Positions 1,351 to 32,087 of a stretch of 32,087 nt of DNA are shown here, in pieces. The translations under genes and the position numbers were made by a program. Source of the stretch: Flectobacillus sp. (GTDB taxonomy: Bacteria; Bacteroidota; Bacteroidia; Cytophagales; Spirosomataceae); assembly GCA_023255485.1 (NCBI GenBank), contig JALRIJ010000004.1, forward strand, positions 1 through 32,087, given 5' to 3'. The notes under the pieces are model-generated. The model saw only the letters and a list, made by a program, of their open reading frames with translations, did not search any database and was not told the origin of the DNA. Positions within the stretch are counted from its first letter, which is position 1. Every line of letters starts with the position of its first letter.

Positions 1351-1351
1351 T

Positions 1352-1405
1352 AGGCAAAAAATGGTCTGAGCTTTGAAAATTAAAACTCAGACCATTTTTT
1401 TGCCT
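1352..1405. terminator. Bidirectional rho-independent terminator
   Basis: The arm at 1352-1370 pairs with 1386-1405 through an almost perfect stem of about 19 bp, differing only by one extra T in the A/T stretch. The core is ATGGTCTGAG / CTCAGACCAT, flanked by A-runs and T-runs. It sits between the convergent TlpA-like gene and the DUF4286 gene and can serve both strands. Confidence 0.9.
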
Positions 1406-1410
1406 ATTGC

Positions 1411-1713
1411 CTAAACCTCTTTCAACAAACTTTCAAAGAAGACATATTTGCCACTGTAACGTAAGTCAATTTTAGCTTTAAAAGAGTCTAAATATGTATT
1501 TCTAAACGTTTCTAATTTGCGTGGATTATTGAAAAGATATTGCACCGAAAAGGTAGCCGCTCCATTATCTACTTCCGTTAATAGCTGTAACATTTTGTGT
1601 TCTAATGGTAACTCTGTAGCCATTACTTCGGGCAGGTGAGTTTCTTTCATCCATGTTAAGAAGTCTTCTTCATTTCCTAATTCAATGCTGTATGTGGTGT
1701 TATAAAGAATCAT
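1411..1713 (-). CDS. DUF4286 family protein
   Basis: This 100-residue protein starts MILYNTTYSIE and contains the segment WMKETHLPEVMAT, which I recognise as typical of the DUF4286 family of small Bacteroidota proteins. The fold is probably ferredoxin-like, resembling dimeric alpha/beta-barrel proteins; the function is unknown. It has no signal peptide and no cysteines, so it is probably cytoplasmic. It lies downstream of the WG-repeat gene on the same strand, but a terminator separates them, so it is probably a separate unit. Confidence 0.82.
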   Translation of the reverse strand: MILYNTTYSIELGNEEDFLTWMKETHLPEVMATELPLEHKMLQLLTEVDNGAATFSVQYLFNNPRKLETFRNTYLDSFKAKIDLRYSGKYVFFESLLKEV

Positions 1714-1730
1714 GTTGTCTGTGTTATGTT

Positions 1731-1767
1731 AATAAAAAATCCATCCCCAAAGGTAGGAGATGGATTA
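1731..1767 (-). terminator. Rho-independent terminator of the WG-repeat gene
   Basis: Read on the minus strand, the sequence forms a stem of AATCCATC with GATGGATT, extended by CC/GG across a one-base bulge. A T-rich run (TTTTTTATT) follows directly. It lies just after the WG-repeat gene stop and before the DUF4286 gene. Confidence 0.85.
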
Positions 1768-1797
1768 CTGGAATCAAAAAAAGCATTTGAAAACCTG

Positions 1798-3936
1798 TTA
1801 TTGATTAGCAAGTTTTCTGATTTCATCAAATCGAGTACAGTTCGTTACGCAATCACCATTGCTATTGAGAATGAACTTACTACCAATATTATCGATTAAT
1901 TCAAACTGTTTGGTGGCAGGAAGAATATTAATTTCGGTAAAATAACAAGGAGCAATTTTAGCGTTAAAACGGTTAATTACGCCCAATTTTCCTGGCCCTT
2001 TTGATACAATAGACAAGCCATTGTTGAACGGTCTTACTTCATCGTAGTCAAATGAAATCTGAACCTTTCCTTTTTTATCAATAAAACCATATTTGTTATT
2101 ATCAAATTTTACACCATACAAGCCCTCAGTCGAGTACATCATTTCTTTGTAAGCAGGCTTACTGATGACCTTGCCGCTTGTATCGATTAACCCCCATTTG
2201 CCGTCTTTCATTACTGGGAAAAGGAAGTTGGAATCATACTTACGAATCGACTTGTAGCCCGTGTTTGTGATGCGGTGCAAGGAGTTTCGTTCAATAAGAT
2301 TATATTCTAACTCTTCGTCGTTGTTAGATGTTGGTGTAAACGTTTTAATAACAATATAGCTGTTATTAAAGAGGGTATCCGTAGTTGCATAGCGAATACC
2401 AATGGGAGCTGCCTCATTGGTTTTGCCAATAATCAACGTACCTGCTTTATCATAGACCATATCCACCTTACAGTTACCCGAAGGAAGGCTACAGTTTTTA
2501 GCATTTTCACGAACCACAACTAAACCTAGTTTATTAAAACTAGCCACTTCATCAAATTGTAGTGGAATAACTTCTGTACCATCGTGTTGTAGGTAACCAC
2601 ATTTTAGGCTGTTATTAACGCCATCCTTACAAGCTGATACCAAGCCGTATTGATTAAACGTACCAATAGAGCGATAAATAGGTTCAATAACTACCTTTAA
2701 ATCGGTATTGATAAAGCCAAAGTATTTTCCGTCTTTGATTGGAGCTAATCCGTACTTGTTAAACTCACCAATGGTAAGGTAGGTTTTGCTGGTACGAAGG
2801 TCATTAAAATCCACTAAGTGAACGCCCATTTCATCTTTAGCAATACCTAGTGAAGCAGAGAAGCCCAAAGCTGGATCTAATGGGAGTGGGGTAATTTGAC
2901 TAAACGAAGGCTTGATTTTGATGTTTCCTTCGGTATCCATTAAGCCCATTTTTTTATTTTGTTCGATAATCATCCATTTGCCTTGCTCAGCGGCAGGGTT
3001 GAGGTTATCGTAAATAGCATCAATTTTGATAGAACCATCCAATTTGATGAGTCCATAACCTTTGCCTTGTTTAACTTTTAGCAGGTCTTTATTGAAATTG
3101 CTAATTTCGTCGAAAAAGTCAGAAACAGGTTTTTTGCTTACATCGTAATTGTTATCGATTAAAGCCATTTTCCCATTTTTGAATTTTGCAATGCTAATTC
3201 CCGAACGTAAGGCTTGTGCTTCTACCACATTTTCTAGGGCATCGCTTTCGTTACCATACATATCAACGAAATACCAGTCAAACTTTTTCACAAGAGCTTT
3301 GCCATCGTTAAAGTTTTCAGCTTTTTCGTATTGGCACGGAATAATTTCGTCGCCACAGAAGTTTAAAAAGCCAAAAACTTGGTCTTTTTTGATACGGGCA
3401 AAACCTTGGTGGTAGTTTTCGACTAAACCATAGCGAGAATTCCCTTTTAAGGTTTCGAGTGGAAAAGAGACAATTTCTTCGTTGGCATAGTCTTTCATTT
3501 TAAAGAATACCCCATCATTTTTAGCATTAAAACACTGAGCCGAAATGACGTTAGAGTGCCTACGTTTGATGTCGCTTTTTTGGTCTATCTGAAAAATATC
3601 ACGAATGTTATCCGTCTCAATTGTTTTGGCATCCGCCTTGTATTTTTTGTCTAGTTTGGCGAGCATCGCCGCATAACTATCGGCATTCACTACATTCTCT
3701 TTACTGAGGTTGCTTATTTCAGTGAATAGACTGCTTTTGGCATTTTTTTCTAAATTGTCTAAGTCTCGTTTAAGGGTTGATATGACATTTTTGCGGGCGA
3801 CATCCATGGATTCCATTCGTTCGCCAACTTGCATATTTCCAATGAATACTCTGGAAGAATCGGTTCGAGAAGCATTTTGCTGTGCAAAAACACTTGTCGC
3901 TGTAATGAGTAATGACAGGGTAAATAGTTTTCTCAT
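1798..3936 (-). CDS. Secreted WG-repeat (KWG) protein
   Basis: The 712-residue product begins with a clear Sec signal peptide, with predicted cleavage after SVFA. Residues of about 30-130 are helical and charged. The rest consists of many WG-type repeats of the form [Y/W]-G-[F/L]-I-[N/D]-x-x-G-x-x-[V/I]-I-P-x-[Y/F]-D-x-[I/V]; clear examples are FGFLNFCGDEIIP, YGLIKLDGSIKI, KWGLIDTSGKVIS and KYGFIDKKGKVQI. WG repeats probably form beta-propeller or solenoid surfaces for binding in the envelope. I see no catalytic domain and no C-terminal T9SS sorting domain. The next upstream gene on this strand is 227 bp away, beyond a large inverted repeat. The function is unknown; the family call is firm. 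Confidence 0.9.
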   Translation of the reverse strand: MRKLFTLSLLITATSVFAQQNASRTDSSRVFIGNMQVGERMESMDVARKNVISTLKRDLDNLEKNAKSSLFTEISNLSKENVVNADSYAAMLAKLDKKYKADAKTIETDNIRDIFQIDQKSDIKRRHSNVISAQCFNAKNDGVFFKMKDYANEEIVSFPLETLKGNSRYGLVENYHQGFARIKKDQVFGFLNFCGDEIIPCQYEKAENFNDGKALVKKFDWYFVDMYGNESDALENVVEAQALRSGISIAKFKNGKMALIDNNYDVSKKPVSDFFDEISNFNKDLLKVKQGKGYGLIKLDGSIKIDAIYDNLNPAAEQGKWMIIEQNKKMGLMDTEGNIKIKPSFSQITPLPLDPALGFSASLGIAKDEMGVHLVDFNDLRTSKTYLTIGEFNKYGLAPIKDGKYFGFINTDLKVVIEPIYRSIGTFNQYGLVSACKDGVNNSLKCGYLQHDGTEVIPLQFDEVASFNKLGLVVVRENAKNCSLPSGNCKVDMVYDKAGTLIIGKTNEAAPIGIRYATTDTLFNNSYIVIKTFTPTSNNDEELEYNLIERNSLHRITNTGYKSIRKYDSNFLFPVMKDGKWGLIDTSGKVISKPAYKEMMYSTEGLYGVKFDNNKYGFIDKKGKVQISFDYDEVRPFNNGLSIVSKGPGKLGVINRFNAKIAPCYFTEINILPATKQFELIDNIGSKFILNSNGDCVTNCTRFDEIRKLANQ

Positions 3937-3996
3937 GGTTAGTCTGTAAATTGAGATAAGTAGTTTTGGGTCGGGATTTTCGCTAAAGTAAATTAG

Positions 3997-4073
3997 CTCC
4001 TATTCTATATTAAAATCAAGTCTCTTTTGGGAAAATAATCTGTCTTGATATTGATTTTAATATAGAAGCGGAG
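3997..4073. repeat. Near-perfect 23-bp inverted repeat, 31-nt spacer
   Basis: Positions 3997-4019 are the reverse complement of 4051-4073, with two mismatches in 23 bp. The inner 15 bp (TCTATATTAAAATCAA-type core) match exactly. The spacer also contains ATCAAG (4015-4020) and CTTGAT (4044-4049), which could form a competing stem. There is no T-run after either arm, so it does not look like a standard terminator. It lies between the WG-repeat gene and the FAD/Fe-S dehydrogenase gene. Confidence 0.85.
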
Positions 4074-4163
4074 TTTAATATTGCTTTAAGTTAGCAAATT
4101 GGTAGCGTTTTTGTAAAATTAATTAAATTTTTTATATTTTTTCGAGGTATTTTTATCTTTTCG

Positions 4164-7100
4164 TTAATCTTTTAGGGCATTCCATAAGATTTCTACGGGA
4201 TGAAGAGCGATACGTCCTGTACCATCCTTAATTTGATGGCGACAACTTGTACCTGGGGCAGCAATAATAACGCTCTCTTCTTGCTTACGAATGGTTGGGA
4301 AGAGTACCAATTCCCCAATTTTCATCGAAACATTATAGTGTTCTGCCTCATAACCAAAAGAGCCTGCCATCCCACAACAACCTGACGGAATTAGCTGTAC
4401 CTCATAGTTTTGAGGTAACGAAAGGATTTTCTTGGTAGCTGTCAGCGATGATAACGCTTTTTGATGACAATGTCCATGGAGTTTGATCAACTGTTTTTCC
4501 TGTGTAAACATATCCTTAGTAATCCGCTTTTTGTCCATTTCTTGTGCCAAGAACTCATCAATCAAATAGGTATTGTCCGCAATGCGTTCAGCATCTGATA
4601 GCAAGGATGGAGGTACTAGTTCTAGGTACTCATCACGTAGGGTTAAAATCGCCGAAGGCTCAATGCCGATAATGGGGCAATTGTCTTGAATTGCTTCGGA
4701 GAGTAACTGAACATTTTTAATAGCAATCTGTTGTGCTTCCCGTACGAGTCCTTTTGATAGATAAGTACGTCCACTTTCAAGATGTTTAGGAATATGTACT
4801 TCGTAGCCTAACGAAGTCAGTAGCAAGATGGCCGTTTGTCCTAATTTGACATCGTTGTAATTGGTAAATTCATCACAGAATAAATATACTTTTCCTTTTT
4901 TAGGACGGCGGCTAGCGGTCTTAGACGGAAGGGGTAATTTGCTGTAAAAGCTATTCTTTTCTCGTTTTTCCTGTGTTTTAAGACGATTAATTTGCCAGTC
5001 TCTGAGTGTCGTTTTGCCTACAGTAGGTAAACTACGTTCGGGAGCAAAGCCTAAGAATTTCTTGACTAAAGCTGAGGTAACAGGGTTTTTTACAATAAAA
5101 TTATAAATCGAAGGGACTTTAATGGCTAAAGCCTGTGATTGGGTAAAATTAGCAATTACCTTGGTTCTGAAAGGTACACCATTCGCATCGTAGTAGTGCT
5201 GTAAAAACTCAGCTTTCATTTTGGCAACGTCAACCTTTGAAGGGCACTCTGACTTACAGCCTTTGCACGACAAGCATAGGTCAAGGACATGCTTTACTTC
5301 ATCGCCTCCCTTGCGTCCTTTGGTTTGTACATTTCCTTTAGCTGCTTCGCTAGTATCTTGTGTTAAAAACTGACGTAATACATTGGCTCTTGCTCTTGTG
5401 GTATCTTTTTCCAGACGAGTAGCCATAAAACTAGGGCACATCGTACCTCCAGTAATTTCAGATTTGCGACAATCGCCTGAGCCTGAACATTTTTCAGATA
5501 AACGAAGGATTCCTTCTTGTCGAGAGAAGTCAAAAATAGTTTTGATTTCAGCAGTTGTTTTACCCGCCTCATAACGTAGGGACTCGTTCATCGGAGGGGT
5601 ATTGACGATTTTTCCTGCATTAAAAATATTTAGAGGGTCAAATACCTTTTTGACTTCATGGATAAGGTCAAACACTTTAGTCCCCATCATGTAGCCGATA
5701 AACTCGCCACGCAAACGTCCGTCCCCATGTTCCCCACTTAGCGAACCGCCATACTTCTTGACAAGGACAGCAGTTTCTTGCAAAATTGTTCGGAACAGCT
5801 CTTTGCCCTCAAGCGTTTTGAGGTTAATCATCGGTTCTACGTGTAGCTCTCCCGCACCAGCGTGAGCGTAGTAAGAGGCGTTTACCTGATGTTTGGCTAG
5901 TAATTCCTGTAATTCGGTGATATAAGCTGGAAGGTCTTCTGGTAATACAGCACAGTCTTCAATTAAGTTAACTGGTTGTGTATCACCAGGTAAGTTACGA
6001 ATGAGTCCTAAGCCAGCTTTTCGTACATCCCAAGCGGGTTTGGTATCTTCTCCACGAATAATAGGATAAGCATATCCATGTCCCGCCTCTTTTAATTCAT
6101 CAATTAGAGCATTTGCCTTTAAGGTAATTTCCTCTTGGCTGTCGGCCATAAATTCAACCATCAAGATGGCTTGTGGGTCACCTTCGATGAAGAAACGGTT
6201 TTTGTGATATTCGTGATGTCCTTTAGTAAAATCCAGAATATACTTGTCCACTAATTCAGATGCCATTGGTTGGTGTTTTAACGCAATGATATTGGCATAA
6301 AGTGAATCCATAATACTAGTACAATGAATACACACTAGCCCTGCTTCTTTGGGAGGAAGAGGAATTAGCTTTAGTTTCACTTCTGTAATAAAGGCCAAGG
6401 TTCCTTCCGAGCCAGCCAATAGTTTACAGAAGTTAAAAGCCTTGGTAGAACCTTCAACAAAGAGTTCGTTATCATTTAATAAATCAAGAGCATAGCCTGT
6501 ATTGCGGCGAGTTAAGGCTTTTTTAGGGTAGGCCTTTTCGATAGCATCTTGATTAAATGGGTTATGAAGTAACTTATGAATTTCACGATAAATAGCTCCT
6601 TCAACACCTTGTAGCTGAGCTTTTTTATAAAACTCATCTTTCGTTAAATCCTTAAAATGAGCTTCTGTTCCATCGCTCAAAATTACCTGAGCCTCTAAGA
6701 GGTTATCTCGTGTATCTCCCCAAACGATTGAGTGCAATCCGCATGAGTTATTGCCGACCATTCCGCCAATCATCGCACGACTTGCAGTTGACGTTTCGGG
6801 GCCAAACATTAGTCCCATTGGCTTCAACATGGCATTGAGGTCGTCACGAATAATACCGGGTTGAATGCGTGCCCATTTTTCTTCAGGATTGATTTCTAGA
6901 ACATTATTGAAGTATTTGGAAGTATCCACTACGATGCCTTTACCGACCACTTGCCCCGCCAGAGAAGTACCCGCTGAACGAGGAATCAGCGTTACCTGAT
7001 GCTTACGGGCAAACTTAACCAATCGTTGAATATCGGTATCGTCCTTTGGGATGGCAACAGCAATTGGTTTCTCCTGATATACAGAGGCATCTGTGGCATA

Positions 7101-7205
7101 TAATACCTTAATGGCATTGTGTTCTGTTGAATTGTCGAAGTAGATTTTCCCTTTGAGTTGTTCTTGTAATTCTGTAAAATCACTAAGCGTTATTTTTGTC
7201 TTCAT
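4164..7205 (-). CDS. FAD- and [4Fe-4S]-binding dehydrogenase (GlcD-GlcF fusion; D-2-hydroxyglutarate/D-lactate type)
   Basis: The predicted product has 1013 residues from ATG at 7205; a TTG seven codons upstream is less likely. Residues of about 40-270 form a PCMH-type FAD domain (PRSAGTSLAG near 75, GGMVGNNSCG near 147). The flavin-oxidase C-terminal domain follows, with HAGAGELHVEP near 448 and GEHGDGR near 491. A ferredoxin-like segment has cysteines at 573, 579, 590 and 644, 647, 650, 654. The CCG-type C-terminal half carries GHCHQK near 911 and SGCCGMAGSFG near 941. The length and fused layout match E. coli YdiJ (about 1018 residues), a 2-hydroxyacid dehydrogenase that probably passes electrons to a quinone or other carrier. 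The substrate (D-2-hydroxyglutarate, D-lactate or glycolate) cannot be told from sequence. It appears to be a single-gene unit. Confidence 0.9.
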   Translation of the reverse strand: MKTKITLSDFTELQEQLKGKIYFDNSTEHNAIKVLYATDASVYQEKPIAVAIPKDDTDIQRLVKFARKHQVTLIPRSAGTSLAGQVVGKGIVVDTSKYFNNVLEINPEEKWARIQPGIIRDDLNAMLKPMGLMFGPETSTASRAMIGGMVGNNSCGLHSIVWGDTRDNLLEAQVILSDGTEAHFKDLTKDEFYKKAQLQGVEGAIYREIHKLLHNPFNQDAIEKAYPKKALTRRNTGYALDLLNDNELFVEGSTKAFNFCKLLAGSEGTLAFITEVKLKLIPLPPKEAGLVCIHCTSIMDSLYANIIALKHQPMASELVDKYILDFTKGHHEYHKNRFFIEGDPQAILMVEFMADSQEEITLKANALIDELKEAGHGYAYPIIRGEDTKPAWDVRKAGLGLIRNLPGDTQPVNLIEDCAVLPEDLPAYITELQELLAKHQVNASYYAHAGAGELHVEPMINLKTLEGKELFRTILQETAVLVKKYGGSLSGEHGDGRLRGEFIGYMMGTKVFDLIHEVKKVFDPLNIFNAGKIVNTPPMNESLRYEAGKTTAEIKTIFDFSRQEGILRLSEKCSGSGDCRKSEITGGTMCPSFMATRLEKDTTRARANVLRQFLTQDTSEAAKGNVQTKGRKGGDEVKHVLDLCLSCKGCKSECPSKVDVAKMKAEFLQHYYDANGVPFRTKVIANFTQSQALAIKVPSIYNFIVKNPVTSALVKKFLGFAPERSLPTVGKTTLRDWQINRLKTQEKREKNSFYSKLPLPSKTASRRPKKGKVYLFCDEFTNYNDVKLGQTAILLLTSLGYEVHIPKHLESGRTYLSKGLVREAQQIAIKNVQLLSEAIQDNCPIIGIEPSAILTLRDEYLELVPPSLLSDAERIADNTYLIDEFLAQEMDKKRITKDMFTQEKQLIKLHGHCHQKALSSLTATKKILSLPQNYEVQLIPSGCCGMAGSFGYEAEHYNVSMKIGELVLFPTIRKQEESVIIAAPGTSCRHQIKDGTGRIALHPVEILWNALKD

Positions 7206-7580
7206 GTCTAAGTAGCGGGCAGTCAAGTAAAGATGGATTCTCGCTCTTTATGGGGTATTTATTTTACACTTTGCAATATACATGTTGCATATCGTTCTTC
7301 CAATGTGCTATATTAATTATAGGTAAAAAAGCCCAATTATACCCATTGATAATACCCAGAACAAAAATGGTGCTATTGTGGTAGATATTATCATAACCAT
7401 CCAATCTTGTAGATATTTTGCCATCGTAGTAGGCAAACTAACCATTAGTCATAAATCAGTCTATTTGTCCGAGAAGCCTCTTATCTTCGTATGTTGTTAA
7501 GCCTGTTTTCACTTATCTTAATGGAGACAGCCCAGTTTATTTTCTTACTCCTTAGCTGTAACTGTATTCGTCCACAATTC
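7206..7580. other. Divergent intergenic region with a short inverted repeat
   Basis: This 375-bp gap separates the divergent dehydrogenase and ABC-permease genes and must contain promoters for both. A small inverted repeat, TGCAA at 7272-7276 and TTGCA at 7285-7289, lies about 70 bp from the dehydrogenase start and could be an operator. TATCTTCG at 7482-7489 resembles the -7 element TAnnTTTG (one mismatch), with TTTG at 7464-7467; the 14-bp spacing is shorter than usual. No gene or RNA is recognisable. Confidence 0.4.
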
Positions 7581-8828
7581 ATGAAAATACTAAGACAATT
7601 ATACGAAAGCCTTCGTTTTGCTTGGCAAGCACTTACCGAGAACATTTTACGCACTACCTTGTCGTTGTTAGGCGTATCTGTCGGTATATTTTCCATTATT
7701 GCCGTTTTAACCTTAGTAGATTCGATGAACCGAAGTATTACTAGCGAATTGGAATCGTTTGGTAAGGGGGTGGTATACGTAGGGAAATGGCCTTGGATTT
7801 TTTCTAATAATTATCCTTGGTGGAAATACCTAAATCGTCCTAATACTCGCTTTAGTGAGTATCAGTACCTGCAAGACAATGTAGAACATCGTCAGGCGAT
7901 TGCGATTATGGACAGGAAGGGAGGGGTTACATTCAAAAATGGAAGTAATAGCATTGATGCCAATTTGATAGGTTGCTCTTTTGAGTATGACAAAATTCAA
8001 GAAATGAATGTAATCAAGGGGCGTTATTTTATGCAAAAAGAAACAGAAAGTGGAGCTTCATCCATTATTATTGGTTCTACCATTGCTGAAACGCTCTTTG
8101 GAGATACCGATCCGATTGATAAGGAGATAAAAGTAAATGGGGTAAAGTTTAGAGTTATTGGAGTGCTCATTAAAAAAGGTAAAGATTTGTTGAGCAGTTT
8201 AGGCGATGACGACCCCGATGCACAAGCCTATATTTCTTACAGAACCTATGCAAATATATTTCAGAATGATGAACCACAACCTGATATAGCGTTAAAAGCA
8301 CTGGCAAGTGATGTGGGTGAGGTAATCTTGGAAGGAGAAATAGAAGGGAAAATGCGTAATATCAGGGGCTTAAAACCACTGGATGAAGATAATTTTTCAA
8401 TCAATAGACTGGATGGAGCTACTAAGTTTTTTGAAGGAGTCTTTGGGGTTTTAACACTTGCTGGTTGGGTGATTGGCTTATTTTCGATGCTAGTGGGTGG
8501 TTTTGGAATTGCCAATATTATGTTTGTATCGGTAAAAGAACGAACAAATATCATTGGTATTCAGAAATCATTAGGAGCTAAAAACTATTTTATCTTGGCT
8601 CAATTCTTATTTGAGGCTATTTTCTTGAGCTTGTTAGGAGGACTAGTCGGGTTATTATTGGTATATTTGATTACGTTTATTCCTATTCCAACCTTTCAGA
8701 TTGTGTTGTCCATGAAGAATTTGACCTTAGGCATTGGCGTATCAAGTGTAATTGGAGTGCTTTCTGGAATCATTCCTGCATGGTCTGCTGCTCGGATGGA
8801 TCCCGTAATCGCTATTCGCTCAAAGTAA
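7581..8828 (+). CDS. MacB/FtsX-type ABC transporter permease
   Basis: The product is 415 residues if started at ATG 7581 (MKILRQLYESLRFAWQAL). An upstream in-frame ATG at 7491 would add a 30-residue hydrophobic piece and is less typical. The layout is MacB-like: one N-terminal membrane segment near residues 22-45 (LLGVSVGIFSIIAVLTLV), a periplasmic core domain of about 220 residues, and three C-terminal membrane segments of the FtsX type near 285-315, 335-370 and 380-405. It ends with ARMDPVIAIR, the usual C-terminal motif. Such permeases work with a cytoplasmic ATPase and often a membrane-fusion protein in export or lipoprotein handling, but neither partner is in this window. The substrate is unknown. 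Confidence 0.88.
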   Translation: MKILRQLYESLRFAWQALTENILRTTLSLLGVSVGIFSIIAVLTLVDSMNRSITSELESFGKGVVYVGKWPWIFSNNYPWWKYLNRPNTRFSEYQYLQDNVEHRQAIAIMDRKGGVTFKNGSNSIDANLIGCSFEYDKIQEMNVIKGRYFMQKETESGASSIIIGSTIAETLFGDTDPIDKEIKVNGVKFRVIGVLIKKGKDLLSSLGDDDPDAQAYISYRTYANIFQNDEPQPDIALKALASDVGEVILEGEIEGKMRNIRGLKPLDEDNFSINRLDGATKFFEGVFGVLTLAGWVIGLFSMLVGGFGIANIMFVSVKERTNIIGIQKSLGAKNYFILAQFLFEAIFLSLLGGLVGLLLVYLITFIPIPTFQIVLSMKNLTLGIGVSSVIGVLSGIIPAWSAARMDPVIAIRSK

Positions 8829-9015
8829 GAAATAAACGCAGACGGGTAACATTTCTTCAATTATGGTTAATTTTAGATGAATTTGATGCAAACTAATTGC
8901 AAACTAATTCAAAGTTTTGCAAATTTGGAGTATATCTTAATATTTTATCCCAACCACGAAAATTGAGCGACTTATGCCATTTAATGAACAACTTCTTTCC
9001 GCAAAACAAACGACA

Positions 9016-9393
9016 ATGAATTTTTTTAAAAAGTTATTTGTAGGGTTAGTCCTTTTTATTTTCATCGCTCTGGGGGTTAGTTATGTCTTGACCCGTTTCT
9101 CTTATTCTAAAGGTGTACGAGCAGGCGTAGTTTCTAAATTATCTGAAAAAGGCTACCTCTTTAAAACCGTCGAGGGCGAATTAAATGTAGGTGCTCAAGG
9201 ACAAGTAGGTAATATGGCAAATAACTTGTGGGCTTTTACTGTAGAAAGTGATAATACGGAAGTCGCAGCAAAATTACAAGAAGCTATGACTGTTGGTAAA
9301 CGAGTGACACTTCATTACGAACAGCGTTACTTGAAGTTCTCATGGATGGGTGATACTGACTATTTCATCACAGCAGTTGAAGAAGCCCCATAA
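9016..9393 (+). CDS. Small membrane-anchored protein of a Bacteroidota family
   Basis: The product is 125 residues from ATG 9016; ATG 8974 would add 14 polar residues ahead of MNFFKKL and is less likely. One membrane segment (about residues 7-25) is followed by a short globular domain containing YSKGVRAG, KGYLFKTVEGEL and SWMGDTDYFIT. I recognise this family from Bacteroidota genomes, where it is often mislabelled 6-phosphogluconate dehydrogenase; nothing here supports that activity, since there is no Rossmann motif and the protein is far too short. The domain probably faces the periplasm. The function is unknown. A terminator follows about 30 bp after the stop. Confidence 0.8.
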   Translation: MNFFKKLFVGLVLFIFIALGVSYVLTRFSYSKGVRAGVVSKLSEKGYLFKTVEGELNVGAQGQVGNMANNLWAFTVESDNTEVAAKLQEAMTVGKRVTLHYEQRYLKFSWMGDTDYFITAVEEAP

Positions 9394-9425
9394 GCAAATC
9401 GTTTGATAAAATGATAAAAGTTAAG

Positions 9426-9454
9426 AGCCTTTGTTGAATGCAAAGGCTTTATTT
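9426..9454 (+). terminator. Rho-independent terminator
   Basis: The stem AGCCTTTG (9426-9433) pairs with CAAAGGCT (9441-9448) around a 7-nt loop and is followed by TTATTT. It lies just after the small membrane-protein gene. Confidence 0.8.
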
Positions 9455-9478
9455 GTTGTTATGGTATTAAAATAATTA

Positions 9479-9507
9479 GCTACCACAAGCGTTACTTCGT
9501 TGGTAGC
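9479..9507 (+). repeat. Inverted repeat in the leader of the DUF1232 gene
   Basis: GCTACCA (9479-9485) is the reverse complement of TGGTAGC (9501-9507), and an inner CG/CG pair could extend the stem across small bulges. There is no T-run afterwards, so it is not a terminator. It lies 95 bp before the DUF1232 start and could be an operator or an RNA hairpin. Confidence 0.5.
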
Positions 9508-14393: not shown

Positions 14394-14738
14394 GAATAAA
14401 ATCATTTGGTACATAATTTGAAGTGAACTAAGAAATTATCAGTTTGTAAGAAATATAAACAGGGTTTTTATCGTTTGGTTATACGGGAATCATCACGTAA
14501 ATACCTACATTAAATTAACATGCCACCTCTGTTAAGTAAGCATTTGAGCGTTATCATCTCGCTCTGAAATTATCATAGTAACATATTGTATTTTCAGTAT
14601 TAAGTATTCATGCAAAAATATCTTAAATTCACTTTTCTTGTAAAGGCTTAGTAGCTAGGGTATTAAATCCAAAATTTAAAATTCATAATTTTGCATTATT
14701 ACTTAGTCAAGTGGTTTACTTACTTTATCAATTATACT
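14394..14738. other. Intergenic region upstream of sprA
   Basis: This 345-bp gap has no clear terminator for ruvA. A short hairpin (GAGCG 14546-14550 with CGCTC 14560-14564) and a promoter-like -7 box close to sprA are the only structures I see. It holds no coding frame or recognisable RNA. Confidence 0.4.
14686..14693 (+). promoter_or_regulatory. Candidate -7 promoter element of sprA (TAATTTTG)
   Basis: This is a perfect TAnnTTTG match 45 bp before the GTG at 14739. No TTG is present at the usual distance upstream. If it is the promoter, the TTG at 14691 is part of the -7 box and cannot start translation, leaving GTG 14739 as the start. Confidence 0.4.
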
Positions 14739-17700
14739 GTGCAACGAAATAAGTTTTACATACTTTCTGGGAGTTTAGTTTTATCAGTTTTTGCCTCGCT
14801 TGCTTGGGTGCTACCTGCTCGTATGAATACGATGAGCAATTGGAATGACTTTGTGAGTAGCGAAGAGATGATAGCCGAAGGAGATACCATTAAAAAGTCG
14901 GGGCGTCGTCCTCGTTTCAAATTAAAAGATAGAACAACGACTCGTTTTTCTGCTAAAAATGCTAATTCGCCTTTCGTTTTAAAAGACCCTAAAGGAATTT
15001 CTACTGAATTCAAATTGGATTCAGCAGGAAAAATTGCCGTATATGAACAATTTAAGGATAATCCACAGCTAGGAGATTATCGTCCTGCCGAACAGCTCTC
15101 TTTCAAAGATTACCAAAAAGTACAACAACAACGTTTTTTACGAGATTATTGGCGAAAATATGCCGCTTCTTTGGATGGTAAAGACGATACCAAGGGGAGG
15201 GGTTTGTTACCCAAAATTGAACTTCCTCCTTCGATTGACCGTATTTTTGGCGGTTCACAAGTAGAATTTAAACCCAATGGAAATATCCTGTTGGATGTAG
15301 GTTATTTGTACCAGTTTTATGATAACCCTTTAACTCCTGTCAATTTGAGAGGAACAGGAAATCTTAGTTTCCAAGAGCAAGCACAAATTAACTTTCAAGG
15401 AAAGATTGGCGATAAGCTGAATCTTAATACCAATTTTGATACCAAAGCTAGTTTCAATTTTCAAAATCAGCTAAAACTAGCGTGGCGTTCCAATGAAGAG
15501 GATATTCTACAAAATGTAGAAGCAGGGAATACTTCGTGGACGTTAAATAGCCAATTGATTCCTGGGGTACAAAACCTATTTGGTCTTAAAACGCTGATGC
15601 GTTTCGGGAAAATGGATGTAACCTTTGTCGCTGCACAACAACGCTCAAAACAAGATTGTATCACCTTACGAGGAGGTTCTCAAGGAAAATCCTTTGAAAT
15701 TAGAGCCGATAACTACGACGAAAATAGAAACTTCTTCTTGTCTTCTTTCTTTAGAGAAAATTATGAACGTTCGCTAAAAAGCCTACCTGCTATTACCTCT
15801 GGCGTAACGATTACTCGTTTGGAAGTCTATGTAACTAATAGAACTAACAACACGGAAACCTTACGAAATATCGTAGGTTTGTCTGATTTGGGGGAAGCGA
15901 AACCATATAACTCGCAGGTAACGCTTGTTGCGGGCAAAACAGCAAGTGCTTCGGTTGATAATAAGAACAATACTTTATATACCAAATACGTAGCAGATTC
16001 TAGCTCTGCTATTGGCAAGGCCTTACGTCAGGCAGATAAAACCACTGCTACTTTAGAACAAGAAGGCTTTAACAAAGGAACTGATTTCGATATGCTTCGA
16101 GGAGCGAAACGCTTGAGTGAGCGAGAATTTCGTTTTCATCCAGAACTAGGCTATATTTCCTTGGTAACACCCCTCAGAAATGATGAAGTCTTGGCGGTTT
16201 CGTATGAATATACCTTGAATGGACAACCTCATCAAGTAGGAGAGCTAACAGAAAACTACCAGAGTAGAAGAGACGATGAGGTCTTGGTAATGAAATTATT
16301 AAAGTCATCTACCATTCGGAATAACTTGCAACATCCGATGTGGAACTTGATGATGAAAAACGTTTACTCGCTTAATACACAGCAAATTAATAAGTTAGGG
16401 TTTCAGTTACGAGTAATTTATAAAGATGACCAAACAGGTATTGATAACCCTAACTTACAAGATGGGCCACTCAAAGATATTCCTTTGGTGAAAGTCTTTG
16501 GTCTGGATAAACTGAATACCAATGGCGATCAGGTAACGGAAAATGGCGTAGAAGGAGATGGTAATTTCGACTATGTAGAAGGTGTAACGATTGATAGTAA
16601 AAATGGACGGGTTATTTTTCCTGTCTTAGAACCTTTTGGAAGTTACCTGAAAAGTAAAGTTTCTAGTGATGTAGAAGCAACGAATAAGTATGTTTTTGAC
16701 CAGTTATACCGTTTGACCCTTACGGATGCTCAGCAGTTACAAGGGAAAAATAAGTTTTTCCTGAAAGGTAGTTACCAGTCAGCAGGAGGAGGAGAAGTTA
16801 CTTTACCTTTTGGAGTGGATGGTAAATCCGTACAAGTGACAGCGGGTGGTGTGCCATTGACCGCAGGAATCGATTATATTGTAGAGGCTGAATTAGGGAA
16901 AGTACGTATTTTGAATGCTGGGGTGTCTAATTCAAGCAGAGAAATAAAAGTATGTTACGAAAAACCTGATTTGTTTAATAACCAAACCAGAACATTAGTC
17001 GGAACGCATATCGATTATATTTTAGGAAAAGACTTCCGAGTGGGAGGAACTTTTCAACATTTGAGTGAAAGCCCTCCAGGTTACTTGAGAAGGGTACAAA
17101 TTGGTAGCGAACCTGTTAGTAATACAGTTTTTGGCGTAGACGCTTCGATTCAACGCAAATCAAAGTTGTTGACAAGAATGTTGGATGCCTTACCGCTTCT
17201 TTCGACAAAAGAAACATCGGCTGTTGACTTTCAAGGAGAATATGCAACCATTATCCCTGCGGTGAATAGTACGGTTCAAGACAATTCCTTTATTGATGAT
17301 TTTGAAGCCGCTCGTAATATCTTTAGTTTAAATAATCAGAGCACTGCTTGGAAAATAGGAGCTGTTCCAAATCAATTTAGAGGAACAGTAACAGATGCTC
17401 CTGAGGTGAATTTTAAGCGAGCCAAAATTTCAGCTTATACCGCTGATTTTAGTTTATACGGTAGTAGTAGCTTCTCCGTGAATGTACCCGGTATCAATGC
17501 TGCCGAAACGAATAACTATGCGTATGAACGTTCGGTGGCTTCACAGTCTTTATTCCCTAACCGTTCGCAAGCTAATAATATTACAGGCTTACCCATTGGT
17601 ATTTTTGACGTTGCTTATTTCCCGTCAGAAAGAGGGATGTATAACTTCAATACTGACCTCGATAGTAAGGGGCATTTGCCAAATCCGAAAGGTAATTTTG

Positions 17701-20700
17701 GAGCGATTACTCGTGCTTTGACTTCGGATACGGATTTAGACAATGCCAATATCGAAACGTTAGAGTTTTGGGTAATGAACCCTTTTGTTGATGGGGATGG
17801 TGGTATTGTGCGTGCGACAGGCAACAGAGACCAAGATAGAGCCAATGCCGAAATTCGTAATCGTGTCGGTGGTAAATTTGTGATTAACCTAGGAGATATT
17901 TCGGAAGATGTAATTCCTGATGGACGTTACAACTTTGAAAACGGGATTCCTGTAGGAGAAAAAGTATTGGTGTCTGCTAATGGGAAAGTCCGTAACGTAG
18001 AAGAAACCTCTTGGGGACTTGCTCCAACTCGCCAGTTTGTGACCAATGCTTTTGATTTACAAAACGGACGTGAAGCTCAGGATGTGGGCTTTGATGGTTT
18101 ACCGAATAATCCAACGGCAACCGATACCTATTTCAACGAAAAAACAAAGTTTGGGGATTATTTGAAGCAAATACGCCAAAAAGTAACTGATGCAGATGCT
18201 TTATCTGCCATTGAAAATGACCCATCTGGTGATGACTTTGTTCACTATTTGAATAGCAAATACGATAATACGTCTAGTATTATTTTACGTTATAAAGATT
18301 ACATGGGGATGGAAAATAACTCGCCATCTACCTCTACTACAGGAACTTCGGGTTATACTGAGGCTAGTAATCAACAGCCTGACCGTGAGGACTTAAATAA
18401 CGATAATACCATCAACGACACTGATGCCTACTACGAGTACGAGTTGGATATGAAGAAAGAGAAGATGACAATCGGACAAAACTTCATTGTTGATAAGGTG
18501 ACTGAAAATGGCGTAGATTGGTTCTTGGTTCGTATTCCTGTGAAAAACTATTCTAAGCGAGTAGGAAACATCAACGGCTTTAAGTCGATGCGTTTTATTC
18601 GTATGTATATGACTGAATGGGAAGCTCCTGTGGTAATGCGTATGGCTTCTTTACAGTTAGCAGGCTATAATTATCGTAAATATACAGGAGACTTAAATCC
18701 AAGAGGTTTGGCCGAAGTACCAGAACCTTACGATGCAAACTTTAAGTTAACTACGGTAAGTATTGAAGAAAATGGCCCTGCCGCAACCAAAGCAGACAAC
18801 ATTGTACCTTACGTAGTGCCTCCTGGTTTTACTCGTGATAGAGATGTAACGACGATTAATAACATTGCATTAAATGAGCAATCAATGAGTTTGTCGGTAG
18901 AAGGGCTTCGTGATGGAGATGCTCGTGCTGTGTTTAAAAACACCATGTTTGACTTTATCAATTATAAAAACTTACGTATGTTCTTCCATACGCATAGTCA
19001 AACAAATGAGACAAGTACAATTGATGGTAAAGTAACAGGCTTTATTCGTATTGGTACTGACCAAGTTGATAACTATTATGAAATTGAAACCAAAGGTTTA
19101 AAAGCGACAGCACCAAGTGCGTCCTTAACTTCGAGAGCCAGTACGGAGTCGCCTGATGCAGCAACTGAAATTTGGCCTGTCGAAAATGAAATTAATATCC
19201 CTTTTGATAGACTAAGAGAAGTTAAGAGAGAGCGAGATAAGCAAAATAAAAGCCTAACTGTTCCTTTTAAAATGGAAGTAGAGGGCAACGACGGAAGAAC
19301 TTATACCATTAGAGTCGTCGGACGACCTGATTTAAGTGCCGTAATGTCTATTATGATTGGGGTACGAAATCCCAATGATTTGCCAAACGATGACCACCAA
19401 CCAAAAACCTTTACCATTTGGGTCGATGAATTGAGAGCCTCAGGTTTTGACCAAACATCGGGTAGTGCAGGGGTTGCTAAATTGGGTTTGAAATTAGCGG
19501 ATTTTGCAAATGTTACCATGAACGGCTCTTTCAAGACTTATGGTTTTGGAGGTGTTCAATCTAAAATTTCAGACCGTAGTCGTGAAAATAGCTTAGAGTA
19601 TGGAGTCGCTGCGAATATCAATTTGGATAAATTATTGCCTCAAAAATGGGGTTTCCAAATTCCGATGTACGTGAGTTATGACCGTAAAAATATTACGCCT
19701 CATTTTGACCCATTAGATCCAGATATTCCTTTAGAAGACAAAATTAATACGATTTCTGATCCTGATAAGCGTGAAGCGTACCGCAAATTAGTAGAAGATA
19801 ATACCGAACGAAAAGGAATTAACTTTAGTAATGTGCGTAAAGTAAGAGCATCAGGAGCAGAAGCTCGCCCTTGGGACTTTGAAAACTTTACCTTTACGTA
19901 TGCTTTCTCAGAAATGACACGTACGAGTATTCTCATCAATGAATACCGACAACTGTCGCATAAAGGAGGGATTACCTACGCATTTACGAGTAATCCAAAA
20001 CCTTTAGAGCCGTTTAAAGAGCTCATTAAATCGTCGCATCCAATGTTACGTTGGGTGAAAGATTTCAATATCAATCCATTGCCTAATAACGTTGCCATTA
20101 GAGCAGATATGGATAGAAGTTTTGTGAAAACGGTATTACGAAACTCTGACGGTACGTCGTCGGAGGGAATTCAAAATTTTACGAATGCTACGCCATTATT
20201 TGAAAAATATTGGTTGATGACTCGTAATTATAATTTGGGTTGGAACTTGACAAAAAGTGTCGTAATTAATTATGCGGCGAATGTCAATGCAATCATCGAT
20301 GAACCGTCTGGCGATATTGATACACAAGCTAAAAAAGACTCTGTGCGTAGAAGTTTATTACGTTTGGGACGTACCAAAAACTTTGAGCAAAACTTCTCTG
20401 GCGTATGGCGTTTACCTTTAAATAAATCGCCTTTAACCGACTGGATGACGGCCGATTATAGCCATAAATTTGGGTACGTTTATACAGCAAGTTCTTATAA
20501 TTTGCGAGATTCGACGGGAGCTTTATTCGGAAATATTATCAAAAACTACCGAGATAGAGGTATTACGGGGAAAATTGACTTTGTGGCTTTGTATAACCGT
20601 ATTCGTGCCTTACGTCTTGCCAATCAACCACGAGTAAGTCGTAAAAACATTGCAAGAAACCCTGGGGATGATGAAGAAATCATGAAGCCTCAGCCTAATT

Positions 20701-22070
20701 TCCTTCGTAGTGTTACTCGTTTGCTTATGGCAATTCGTGGTATTCAGGTAAATTATAATATCAATGAAACAACGACTTTACCGGGCTTTTTACCATCGCC
20801 AGGCTTATTAGGAATGAGCTCGACGGGGTCTGCCCCTGGGTTTGGTTTCGTAACGGGTAGTCAGGACGGAGATGTACGATTCCGAGCTGGGGAGAATGGA
20901 TGGCTTACCAAAAGTACCGTTCAAAATACGCCATTCGTACAAACCAAAACGCAAAACTTAACCTATCGAAGTGCGATAGAACCTTTCAAGGATTTCAAAA
21001 TTCAGGTAGAAGGAAAATGGAGTCGTTCGGATAATTATCAAGAGTTCTACCGACCAGCAACGCTTGGTGGTAAATTTGAAAGCCAAAGTCCAGTCCATTC
21101 GGGTAATTATACCATGACATTCTGGTCGTTCTTGACGGCGTTCGACAGCAATGCACCGAATGAAACTTCGGGTATTTTCAATCGATTCAAAGACTATAGA
21201 AGTATTATTAAACAACGCTTAGAAAATAGTAGAACATTTGGTTCGGACGAACGATACAATTTGAATTCGCAAGATGTGTTAATTCCTGCTTTCTTTGCGG
21301 CCTACAGTGGGGTGTCACCAAATGCGGTGAGTTTTTCTCCTTTTGTGAATATCCCATTACCAAACTGGCGTTTAGATTATAATGGTTTAGCAAATGTGGG
21401 TTGGTTTAAGCGTAAGTTCTCGTCGATAGCAGTGACGCACTCTTACACTTCTACTTATAGCGTAGGTAATTTCGTGTCGTCGTTAAGCTATGATAATCCA
21501 TTTGAGTTGAATATCAATAATATGTTGTATCCACTTTCGTCTAAAGTGGATGAACAAGGCTATTTGATTCCTGTTTATGTGATGAGTACGATTACGTTCC
21601 AAGAAAAATTTGCTCCTTTTATTGGGTTCAATGCAACGACCAAAAATAAGATTTCATTGCGTTTGGAATACTCACAAGATAGAAGTGTTGGGTTAAATTT
21701 AGCGAACTCACAAGTGGCTGAATTAAGTAATAAGGATTTAACCTTTGGAATGGGCTTTACGAAAGCAAATATGTTGATTCCTTTCAAAGTGAATCGTCAG
21801 CGAGTGAAATTACCGAACGATTTGAAGTTCCAAATGAACTTAACCGTGCGTGATACTCGTACTATTCAGCGTAAATTAGATGCAGAAACGGTAGTAACTA
21901 ATGGGTTCTTAAACTTCCAATTCCGTCCACAAATTACGTATAATGTGAGTAAACGTATGAGTATGAGTATGTATTTCGACAAAATGTTCAACAATCCGTA
22001 TGTGTCAAATACGTATTACCGCTCAACGATTGCCGCAGGCTTCCAAGTGCGTTTCAGTTTGTCGGACTAG
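14739..22070 (+). CDS. sprA: SprA/Sov, outer-membrane translocon of the type IX secretion system
   Basis: The product is about 2443 residues, close to F. johnsoniae SprA and P. gingivalis Sov. There is no suitable ATG. GTG 14739 gives a short basic start followed by a signal peptide (FYILSGSLVLSVFASLAWVLPA); TTG 14691 would add 16 residues and overlaps a -7 box. The sequence is typical of the family: an N-terminal barrel segment (KLNLNTNFDTKASFNF), large periplasmic/plug segments, and many amphipathic beta-strand stretches up to a C-terminal barrel end (GFQVRFSLSD). SprA forms the very large single-chain barrel through which T9SS cargo crosses the outer membrane, and it supports gliding in motile species. 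It is followed by gcvH after 241 bp. No frameshift is evident. Confidence 0.95.
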   Translation: MQRNKFYILSGSLVLSVFASLAWVLPARMNTMSNWNDFVSSEEMIAEGDTIKKSGRRPRFKLKDRTTTRFSAKNANSPFVLKDPKGISTEFKLDSAGKIAVYEQFKDNPQLGDYRPAEQLSFKDYQKVQQQRFLRDYWRKYAASLDGKDDTKGRGLLPKIELPPSIDRIFGGSQVEFKPNGNILLDVGYLYQFYDNPLTPVNLRGTGNLSFQEQAQINFQGKIGDKLNLNTNFDTKASFNFQNQLKLAWRSNEEDILQNVEAGNTSWTLNSQLIPGVQNLFGLKTLMRFGKMDVTFVAAQQRSKQDCITLRGGSQGKSFEIRADNYDENRNFFLSSFFRENYERSLKSLPAITSGVTITRLEVYVTNRTNNTETLRNIVGLSDLGEAKPYNSQVTLVAGKTASASVDNKNNTLYTKYVADSSSAIGKALRQADKTTATLEQEGFNKGTDFDMLRGAKRLSEREFRFHPELGYISLVTPLRNDEVLAVSYEYTLNGQPHQVGELTENYQSRRDDEVLVMKLLKSSTIRNNLQHPMWNLMMKNVYSLNTQQINKLGFQLRVIYKDDQTGIDNPNLQDGPLKDIPLVKVFGLDKLNTNGDQVTENGVEGDGNFDYVEGVTIDSKNGRVIFPVLEPFGSYLKSKVSSDVEATNKYVFDQLYRLTLTDAQQLQGKNKFFLKGSYQSAGGGEVTLPFGVDGKSVQVTAGGVPLTAGIDYIVEAELGKVRILNAGVSNSSREIKVCYEKPDLFNNQTRTLVGTHIDYILGKDFRVGGTFQHLSESPPGYLRRVQIGSEPVSNTVFGVDASIQRKSKLLTRMLDALPLLSTKETSAVDFQGEYATIIPAVNSTVQDNSFIDDFEAARNIFSLNNQSTAWKIGAVPNQFRGTVTDAPEVNFKRAKISAYTADFSLYGSSSFSVNVPGINAAETNNYAYERSVASQSLFPNRSQANNITGLPIGIFDVAYFPSERGMYNFNTDLDSKGHLPNPKGNFGAITRALTSDTDLDNANIETLEFWVMNPFVDGDGGIVRATGNRDQDRANAEIRNRVGGKFVINLGDISEDVIPDGRYNFENGIPVGEKVLVSANGKVRNVEETSWGLAPTRQFVTNAFDLQNGREAQDVGFDGLPNNPTATDTYFNEKTKFGDYLKQIRQKVTDADALSAIENDPSGDDFVHYLNSKYDNTSSIILRYKDYMGMENNSPSTSTTGTSGYTEASNQQPDREDLNNDNTINDTDAYYEYELDMKKEKMTIGQNFIVDKVTENGVDWFLVRIPVKNYSKRVGNINGFKSMRFIRMYMTEWEAPVVMRMASLQLAGYNYRKYTGDLNPRGLAEVPEPYDANFKLTTVSIEENGPAATKADNIVPYVVPPGFTRDRDVTTINNIALNEQSMSLSVEGLRDGDARAVFKNTMFDFINYKNLRMFFHTHSQTNETSTIDGKVTGFIRIGTDQVDNYYEIETKGLKATAPSASLTSRASTESPDAATEIWPVENEINIPFDRLREVKRERDKQNKSLTVPFKMEVEGNDGRTYTIRVVGRPDLSAVMSIMIGVRNPNDLPNDDHQPKTFTIWVDELRASGFDQTSGSAGVAKLGLKLADFANVTMNGSFKTYGFGGVQSKISDRSRENSLEYGVAANINLDKLLPQKWGFQIPMYVSYDRKNITPHFDPLDPDIPLEDKINTISDPDKREAYRKLVEDNTERKGINFSNVRKVRASGAEARPWDFENFTFTYAFSEMTRTSILINEYRQLSHKGGITYAFTSNPKPLEPFKELIKSSHPMLRWVKDFNINPLPNNVAIRADMDRSFVKTVLRNSDGTSSEGIQNFTNATPLFEKYWLMTRNYNLGWNLTKSVVINYAANVNAIIDEPSGDIDTQAKKDSVRRSLLRLGRTKNFEQNFSGVWRLPLNKSPLTDWMTADYSHKFGYVYTASSYNLRDSTGALFGNIIKNYRDRGITGKIDFVALYNRIRALRLANQPRVSRKNIARNPGDDEEIMKPQPNFLRSVTRLLMAIRGIQVNYNINETTTLPGFLPSPGLLGMSSTGSAPGFGFVTGSQDGDVRFRAGENGWLTKSTVQNTPFVQTKTQNLTYRSAIEPFKDFKIQVEGKWSRSDNYQEFYRPATLGGKFESQSPVHSGNYTMTFWSFLTAFDSNAPNETSGIFNRFKDYRSIIKQRLENSRTFGSDERYNLNSQDVLIPAFFAAYSGVSPNAVSFSPFVNIPLPNWRLDYNGLANVGWFKRKFSSIAVTHSYTSTYSVGNFVSSLSYDNPFELNINNMLYPLSSKVDEQGYLIPVYVMSTITFQEKFAPFIGFNATTKNKISLRLEYSQDRSVGLNLANSQVAELSNKDLTFGMGFTKANMLIPFKVNRQRVKLPNDLKFQMNLTVRDTRTIQRKLDAETVVTNGFLNFQFRPQITYNVSKRMSMSMYFDKMFNNPYVSNTYYRSTIAAGFQVRFSLSD

Positions 22071-28981: not shown

Positions 28982-30160
28982 ATGTACATGCAAAAAGGAG
29001 CTAATAATACATATTGGGGAAATATTAAAGAAGGGGTTAAATCGTCTTTGAAAGGACTTAGTTTATCTTTTCGTCATCTCCTAGAGGCACGAAGAAGCCG
29101 TAAACCAATGTTTGTCGGTAATGTCTCTTATTTTGACCAACAAACAGGGATTGTCACCACACAGTATCCTAGAGAACTCTTACCCGTACCTGATAACGGA
29201 CGCTATCAGTTGCATAATGAAATGGATGATTGTATCGTCTGTGACAAATGTGCTAAGGTATGTCCTGTTGACTGTATCGAGATTGAGCCTATCAAAGCGA
29301 CAGGTGTAGTGGGTCATGCGTCGGATGGCTCTGCGATTCGTTTGTATGCTGCCAAGTTCGATATTGATATGGCAAAATGTTGTTTCTGTGGGTTGTGTAC
29401 AACGGTTTGCCCAACAGAGTGCCTTACAATGTCGAAGGAATACGACTTCTCGGAGTTTGATATTACGAAACATAATTTTGCTTTTGGAAATCTATCACCA
29501 GAACAAGCTCAGGAAAAGAAGGATTTGTACGAGCAGTTTATGCTTGAAAAAGAGGCGTTCAAAAAGCAGACGGCAAAACCAACTGCTGCGGAGGAAGATA
29601 AACCGAAGCCTGCGACAAAGCCTGCCTTCAAACCTATGGCTCGCCCTGTTGCAAAAGCGGTAGATACTCCGCCTGTACAAGAAGAAGCTAAAACAGTTGA
29701 GCCAACCGAAGAGCAATTACCCAAACCAAAACCAGCTTTTAGACCAGCCTTTAAAAAGCCTGCTGTCCAAGAAGAGGAACAAACTTCGAGTGAAATACCA
29801 ACCAAACCAGTTGATGAAGTTACGCCAGTGGTAGAAGAAGCGAAGCCAAAGCCAGCTTTCCGTCCGAAGTTTAAGAAGCCTTCTACAGATGCGGTAACGA
29901 GCGAAGTCAGTCAGGAGGAAGCATCTCTTGCCGAAACGCCTACTGAAGCCCAAGCGGTAGAAGAAGCGAAGCCGAAGCCAGCTTTCCGTCCGAAGTTTAA
30001 GAAGCCCTCTACGGATGCGACCACGAGCGAAGTAAGTCAGGTGGAAGAGCCTCTTGCCGAAACGCCCACAGAAACCCCAGCGGTAGAAGAAGCAAAGCCG
30101 AAGCCAGCTTTCCGTCCGAAATTTAAACGACCAACATCAAATCCAGATACAGAAAATTGA
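28982..30160 (+). CDS. nuoI: NADH-quinone oxidoreductase subunit I with a long repetitive tail
   Basis: The start is ATG 28982 or the ATG two codons later. Residues of about 20-170 are a standard NuoI. Two [4Fe-4S] motifs are intact, C84-x2-C87-x2-C90-x3-C94-P and C133-x2-C136-x2-C139-x3-C143-P, which form clusters N6a and N6b on the electron path to quinone. NuoI proteins are usually about 160-220 residues; this one has 392. Residues of about 196-392 are Lys/Pro/Glu-rich with recurring KPKPAFRPxFKKP motifs, including a 42-residue repeat present 2.6 times. The tail is probably disordered. nuoJ overlaps by 3 bp, and no upstream nuo gene is adjacent. Confidence 0.93.
   Translation: MYMQKGANNTYWGNIKEGVKSSLKGLSLSFRHLLEARRSRKPMFVGNVSYFDQQTGIVTTQYPRELLPVPDNGRYQLHNEMDDCIVCDKCAKVCPVDCIEIEPIKATGVVGHASDGSAIRLYAAKFDIDMAKCCFCGLCTTVCPTECLTMSKEYDFSEFDITKHNFAFGNLSPEQAQEKKDLYEQFMLEKEAFKKQTAKPTAAEEDKPKPATKPAFKPMARPVAKAVDTPPVQEEAKTVEPTEEQLPKPKPAFRPAFKKPAVQEEEQTSSEIPTKPVDEVTPVVEEAKPKPAFRPKFKKPSTDAVTSEVSQEEASLAETPTEAQAVEEAKPKPAFRPKFKKPSTDATTSEVSQVEEPLAETPTETPAVEEAKPKPAFRPKFKRPTSNPDTEN
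29831..30160 (+). repeat. 126-bp tandem repeat inside nuoI (2.6 copies)
   Basis: Copies begin at 29831, 29957 and 30083, exactly 126 bp apart; the last is cut by the stop codon after 78 bp. The first two copies are nearly identical over their first 80 bases, and many changes are single third-position bases. Each encodes VEEAKPKPAFRPKFKKPSTD followed by a Ser/Glu/Thr-rich spacer. More degenerate copies of the KPKPAFRP motif lie upstream, from about 29607. Confidence 0.95.
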
Positions 30161-31551: not shown

Positions 31552-32087
31552 CTATTTTTCCCATTCTAAGGTATTGAGCAAATGAATGACATCTTTTTTA
31601 AGGTAGTCAATCACAGGGGCAAGAGAATCGCTTTTAAGAGCTGTGTTGAAGTACAAAGCACCACGCAAATAATGCTTCGTCGAATCGGTTGTATAAAACT
31701 GTAAATAAGTGGGAACTTCGCCTTCTAATTCCATTAAGTTAGCGGTCTTACCACTAGGAGTTTTCAAGATTAAATCTTGAATCGAATAGGCTTTAATGTT
31801 ATGTTTTGCCGCAAGAATATGAGCGTCGTCAATCAAATGAGCCAGTTTAACTTTATCGCCATGTAAAGGTTTGTAAGTAAGCTGAATCATGGCTTTAAAT
31901 TCTGGATAGACAATATAAATCCAATGAGGTTCAGCCCAACGGACAGAGTCTTTTTTGATAATCGCATATTTAGAATAGTCAAAACGATAGGGATGCTTTT
32001 CGGTCAAAGGCTGATAGGCTTCTACAGGTAAGTCAATACGATTATAACCTTTGGGTTTAGGCATAAACGTATCCGAATCATTTTTAC
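31552..32087 (-). CDS. gldD: Gliding motility lipoprotein GldD, 5' end outside window
   Basis: The frame stays open to the right edge, so the start (and the expected lipoprotein signal peptide) is missing; about 178 residues are visible. The sequence FMPKPKGYNRIDLP followed by PYRFDYSKYA matches the conserved N-terminal part of GldD, and FKAMIQLTYKP and YLRGALYFN also fit. GldD is a lipoprotein required for gliding and for function of the type IX machinery in Flavobacterium. Together with sprA and gldF this is the third gliding/T9SS gene in the window. No terminator separates it from the thioesterase gene. Confidence 0.88.
   Translation of the reverse strand, partial: KNDSDTFMPKPKGYNRIDLPVEAYQPLTEKHPYRFDYSKYAIIKKDSVRWAEPHWIYIVYPEFKAMIQLTYKPLHGDKVKLAHLIDDAHILAAKHNIKAYSIQDLILKTPSGKTANLMELEGEVPTYLQFYTTDSTKHYLRGALYFNTALKSDSLAPVIDYLKKDVIHLLNTLEWEK

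Follow-up and report, generated by a model that had tools for sequence, protein, structure and literature searches.

The window, by which I mean the whole stretch of 32,087 nucleotides analysed here from a Flectobacillus sp. genome (GCA_023255485.1, contig JALRIJ010000004.1), contains only three complex I genes: nuoI, with nuoJ and nuoK directly 3' of it (Table 1). In relatives, nuoH, nuoL and nuoM adjoin as well. The nuoI-like product has two CxxCxxCxxxCP [4Fe-4S] motifs and Fer4 domains, as expected of a NuoI/NDUFS8 protein, and scores below the NCBIfam cut-offs for NuoI (82.1 against 113 bits for TIGR01971, 83.1 against 163 for NF004537). Its true start may be at 28988, since relatives begin at MQKGANN, and its TGA stop (30158-30160) overlaps the TTG start of nuoJ at 30157, giving a shared TTGA (3-4 bp). 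The gene for the gliding lipoprotein GldD (Pfam PF25593) lies beside nuoIJK on the reverse strand (31552-32064), and the window also encodes a 2459-aa protein on the forward strand (14691-22070) which I take to resemble SprA.

Table 1. Features of the nuoI locus, in positions of the window.
Feature	Position	Strand	Basis or remark
nuoI-like gene (set B), 392 aa	28982..30160	+	intact ORF; start possibly 28988
Double [4Fe-4S] ferredoxin part, both CxxCxxCxxxCP motifs	29219..29434	+	Fer4 domains; cysteines invariant in alignments
Helix closing the folded part, residues 173-197	29498..29572	+	AlphaFold2, pLDDT 75-89; rest of model poor
C-terminal tail, ~197 residues, from about residue 196 to 392	29567..30157	+	P/E/A/K/T-rich, net charge -3, without predicted secondary structure
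Degenerate first motif copy, KPATKPAFKPMARPVAK	29613..29663	+	read from translation
Motif copy 1, KPKPAFRPAFKKPA	29723..29764	+	translation and DNA-level pattern
126-nt (42-residue) tandem unit, 2.4 copies, 90% matches	29830..30126	+	
Motif copy 2, KPKPAFRPKFKKPS	29843..29884	+	translation and DNA-level pattern
Motif copy 3, KPKPAFRPKFKKPS	29969..30010	+	translation and DNA-level pattern
Motif copy 4 (C-terminal copy), KPKPAFRPKFKRPT	30095..30136	+	translation and DNA-level pattern
nuoJ (set B), 172 aa	30157..30675	+	PF00499; TTG start overlapping nuoI stop
nuoK (set B), 100 aa	30701..31003	+	PF00420

A preliminary description of this DNA had reported a long, charged and probably disordered tail with at least four motifs, in an intact frame that overlaps nuoJ and is no misread, and both points held up. 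The tail contains four exact copies of KPKPAFRPxFK(K/R)P plus one degenerate copy, and at the DNA level the motif pattern matches exactly at 29729, 29849, 29975 and 30101. A single-chain AlphaFold2 model from 32 sequences, with a badly modelled core (mean pLDDT 56), showed nothing structured past residue 197; the tail is probably disordered as modelled, and would be so in vivo. Each motif is basic and the spacers are slightly acidic, with the net charge of the tail near zero (-3 in the window protein, median +4 in the family). An origin by frameshift or readthrough was ruled out by codon-level selection and family-wide conservation, and a single TAG recorded in one relative (G001) was no in-frame stop, being merely the alignment extending beyond that gene's own stop.

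In the window's family (f1, assigned to the Spirosomaceae through its named relatives), each of the 37 complete proteins carries the motif, in 1-11 copies and at total lengths of 241-550 residues, with named examples from Flectobacillus, Arcicella, Runella, Emticicia, Larkinella, Dyadobacter, Siphonobacter, Aquirufa and Spirosoma. A copy lies close to the C-terminus, at a median of 7 residues from the end in this family, and a single copy, likewise placed, is all that many relatives have. The family tails gave 186 motif matches against 1.97 +/- 1.37 in composition-preserving shuffled tails, an enrichment of about 94-fold. Conservation reached 100% for F, 100% for P, 99% for K and 90% for M/F. 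The search pattern itself presets P and, for the F, M/F and K positions, the class of residue, so that information lies only in which residue of a class is used. Comparing tandem copies gave a pN/pS of 0.11 for motif codons and 0.44 for spacers, counted with the pattern required in one copy only, as requiring the motif in both copies is biased. By these counts the motif is under strong purifying selection, although its copy number changes often: on a FastTree tree of the folded part of NuoI, in which several long branches are uncertain, the copy-number class (of three classes) shifts at least 33 times.

This mobility raises the question of whether tandem duplications simply multiplied one functional C-terminal motif without benefit. 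Such a neutral expansion would fit the wide variation in copy number between related genera, the tandem unit that differs in length in each of them (25-68 codons), and the persistence of single-copy relatives. However, the internal copies are also constrained, because they keep a pN/pS of about 0.1 while the adjacent spacers drift, and I consider this explanation decidedly unlikely.

The motif is essentially private to nuoI. Its DNA pattern has four matches in the window's genome, 4/4 of them in nuoI, and the reversed control has 0; in 37 genomes of the family, 106 of 117 matches fall inside nuoI, and the 11 elsewhere, compared with 21 for the reversed-pattern control, are at chance level. Seven regions among these 11 were read, and most were chance frames or lay within unrelated proteins. 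Another contig of G006 (G006:C165:12588, L174:3001) encodes KPVFRPTMK in an unrelated frame; this peptide matches a nuoI tail copy exactly, perhaps through chance or misassembly. A generic low-complexity tail was ruled out by this privacy, and a general effect of charge or composition is insufficient as an explanation because the motif is both selected and restricted to nuoI.

The tail had previously been placed on an ordinary complex I NuoI, and here the earlier account has to be corrected. The same genome has a canonical operon, nuoABCDEFGHIJ (set A), on the reverse strand of contig C222 at 793-9505 (L262, C222:1-20000), whose subunits E, F, G, H and D were named by Pfam and several others from their sequences. 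Its NuoG is short (338 aa) and its NuoI, of 172 aa, passes TIGR01971 (132.5 against a cut-off of 113 bits) and has no tail; set-A NuoI proteins in eight other genomes likewise end at 172-203 residues and lack the motif. Because the canonical operon has this tail-less NuoI, the tail belongs to the second set alone. Comparison with PDB structures placed the window protein nearest to NdhI of chloroplasts and cyanobacteria (7wfg, 7eu3, 9grx, 6hum), and set-A NuoI nearest to Thermus and mitochondrial complex I subunits.

Gene content and order show the window nuoI as a member of a second, dispersed complex I set (NuoD/H/I/J/K/L/M; set B) without NuoEFG, paralogous to the canonical operon. Complete Spirosomaceae genomes encode two NuoH and two NuoD. 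The window's metagenome-assembled genome contains set-B D, I, J and K, the second NuoD standing alone on contig C99; a second NuoH was not found in this assembly, which is 88.8% complete, and its incompleteness may explain the gap. The set-B order in relatives is nuoH-I-J-K-L-M (L159) or nuoI-J-K-L-M (L196, L210), and nuoHIJKLM(N) lie together in some. The earlier proposal that the tail could bind a partner stands for a motif-bearing tail, with the second, headless set as the enzyme concerned instead of ordinary complex I.

Set-B NuoI was present in 99 of 148 genomes sampled across the order Cytophagales. Forty of the 99 are without NuoF, because they have no PF01512 protein, and in a further eight (family f18) the sole PF01512 match is RnfC-like, as the genes next to it indicate in two of them and the span of the match in the other six. 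Where inspected, the f18 matches were ruled out as NuoF, being RnfC beside RnfD (named from protein sequences). The only PF01512 match in the window's genome lies within the set-A operon. About 48 of the 99 genomes have no complex I other than set B; NuoD and NuoH were present in set-B-only genomes where looked for, and NuoJ, K, L and M are adjacent in relatives. Since 40 plus 8 of the 99 genomes are without NuoF, set B appears to work without an NADH module and is, by its gene complement, a headless complex I of the 11-subunit type.

Across the order, set-B NuoI has 0-11 copies of F-[KR]-P-x-[MF]-K, and one of them usually lies near the C-terminus. Outside the window's family, most families have a related basic/hydrophobic-P-x-hydrophobic-basic motif in 0-9 copies, frequently placed towards the C-terminus; in several families, divergent versions escape the strict pattern. 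The preliminary description would have counted the tail as ordinary had all Bacteroidota NuoI shared it, and the survey shows otherwise: among the NuoI proteins compared, it is absent from the set-A proteins examined, from families f6 and f21, from f12 G169 and one f2 genome, from the sister family of the class (f23), and from a Chlorobi-like family. Family f21 (L168-L170) has strongly reduced genomes of 0.9-1.8 Mb and keeps a tail-less set-B NuoI. The tail is thus real, order-wide and selected, on a different enzyme than first supposed.

Several observations accompany this distribution. In other classes of the phylum (f34, f47 and f68; L092-L099, L102, L172), NuoI tails contain a different repeat, K-K-L-S-P-M-M-A-A-K-L-A-A-K-K, in 2-3 copies, which suggests that multivalent basic tails evolved in parallel on NuoI. 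The NuoI of f39, from another class (L087, L088), has a tail of 89-96 residues and nests within the Cytophagales on the NuoI tree, possibly by horizontal transfer or as a long-branch artefact. A fused E1-type 2-oxoacid dehydrogenase gene (PF00676 + PF02779 + PF02780) lies directly upstream of tailed nuoI at 31 of 78 named loci (e.g. L182:7451-9676, L215:7788-10010), though not in the window; this is probably shared gene order and possibly a functional lead.

The literature searched held no description of a repeat-motif tail on NuoI, including in headless 11-subunit enzymes. Those complex I-like enzymes, in Desulfitobacterium, Prevotella and other Bacteroidota, are without NuoEFG as set B is (PMC11238625, PMC6560451), and their electron donor is stated as unknown (PMC11238625); set B differs in that its genes are dispersed and, in the Spirosomaceae, coexist with a canonical NuoEFG-containing operon. 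NdhI of the ferredoxin-fed NDH-1 is, like the window protein, a subunit of a complex I without NuoEFG and carries clusters N6a/N6b, whereas its solved chains, of 163-196 residues, have no repeat tail. Cyanobacterial NdhI contacts ferredoxin via the lysine cluster Lys86/89/91 (PMC7021789), but the window protein does not conserve them, its corresponding loop being almost lysine-free in the alignment. Disordered spacers with many short-motif copies among them do occur in CsoS2 and EPYC1. These are dedicated scaffold proteins with known partners, whereas the window tail sits on a redox subunit.

The C-terminal extension of E. coli NuoI is, like the window tail, lineage-specific and on the same end of the same subunit, and its residues 139-180 line NuoG, NuoB, NuoF and NuoE (PMC8357420). 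The tail could by this example be a structural staple that binds the peripheral arm of the very complex it belongs to (NuoB/C/D), thereby stabilising this complex or guiding its assembly, one C-terminal copy being enough and the extras spare. Ordered extensions of NuoI, NuoB and NuoF act in this way in E. coli, many relatives have a single copy near the C-terminus, and the motif stays fixed where linkers diverge. The E. coli extension is, however, an ordered, non-repetitive single copy of ~42 residues in an enzyme with NuoEFG, compared with ~197 repetitive and probably disordered residues here, and as many as 11 copies, with recurrent gains and losses (33 changes), are more than a single site on a 1:1 complex calls for. 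A staple is therefore a rather doubtful reading, if a serious one.

Alternatively, the basic/aromatic motifs may bind the anionic face of the membrane or other respiratory complexes and so cluster the enzyme. Every motif is basic and contains F/M, and the tails in other classes with their different basic/hydrophobic repeat look as if any multivalent tail of this kind sufficed. Against this, the fixed register of the motif suggests a specific groove over general lipid binding, and the slightly acidic spacers leave the whole tail near neutral, making a membrane or supercomplex tether unlikely. It seems very improbable indeed that proteases cut the tail off or that it is inert for some other reason, given purifying selection and its retention in the Spirosomaceae and in most of the order's remaining families.

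At somewhat less than even confidence, I favour the reading that the tail serves a headless complex I as a row of short linear docking motifs, displayed on its exposed electron-entry subunit. A single motif, F-[KR]-P-x-[MF]-K-P flanked by basic residues, would recur along a disordered chain, as a rule also close to the C-terminus, and tandem duplication would have multiplied it in the Spirosomaceae. Each motif would fit a defined docking site of a partner protein, and having several of them would raise local concentration and avidity. The likeliest partner would be a protein or module that feeds electrons to the set-B enzyme, or a factor that holds this donor there, because NuoI carries the electron-entry clusters N6a/N6b and would lie uncovered when NuoEFG is missing. 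The C-terminus of E. coli NuoI runs along the NuoG/NuoE/NuoF side (PMC8357420), and a free tail in the headless enzyme would therefore emerge near the electron entry. The partner may accordingly be the donor itself or the factor holding it, but with a net charge near zero the tail is unlikely to capture an acidic ferredoxin simply by electrostatic attraction, and the lack of conservation of the NdhI contact lysines also speaks against plain ferredoxin capture.

Further points count against a docking array. The tail is about equally common in set-B genomes with and without a PF01512 protein; the headless, tail-less lineages f6 and f21 presumably still receive electrons, and the existence of such relatives is another point against plain ferredoxin capture; and the many copies could stem from neutral slippage, with a single C-terminal one functional. 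The narrower version of the docking array, in which the tail is a donor-recruitment platform of an aerobic headless complex I and its identical motifs capture the donor beside N6a/N6b, is possible though on the improbable side.

What supplies electrons to complex I enzymes that have no NADH module is still to be settled (PMC11238625), and a selected motif private to nuoI sits exactly on the subunit that should receive those electrons. For the Spirosomaceae, the tail-less paralogue in the NuoEFG-containing complex I of the same genome provides an internal control, and the motif is a ready bait peptide for finding the partner. If the tail does recruit the donor, such a platform would be a solution unlike the accessory subunits of NDH-1 and unlike the NuoEFG module.
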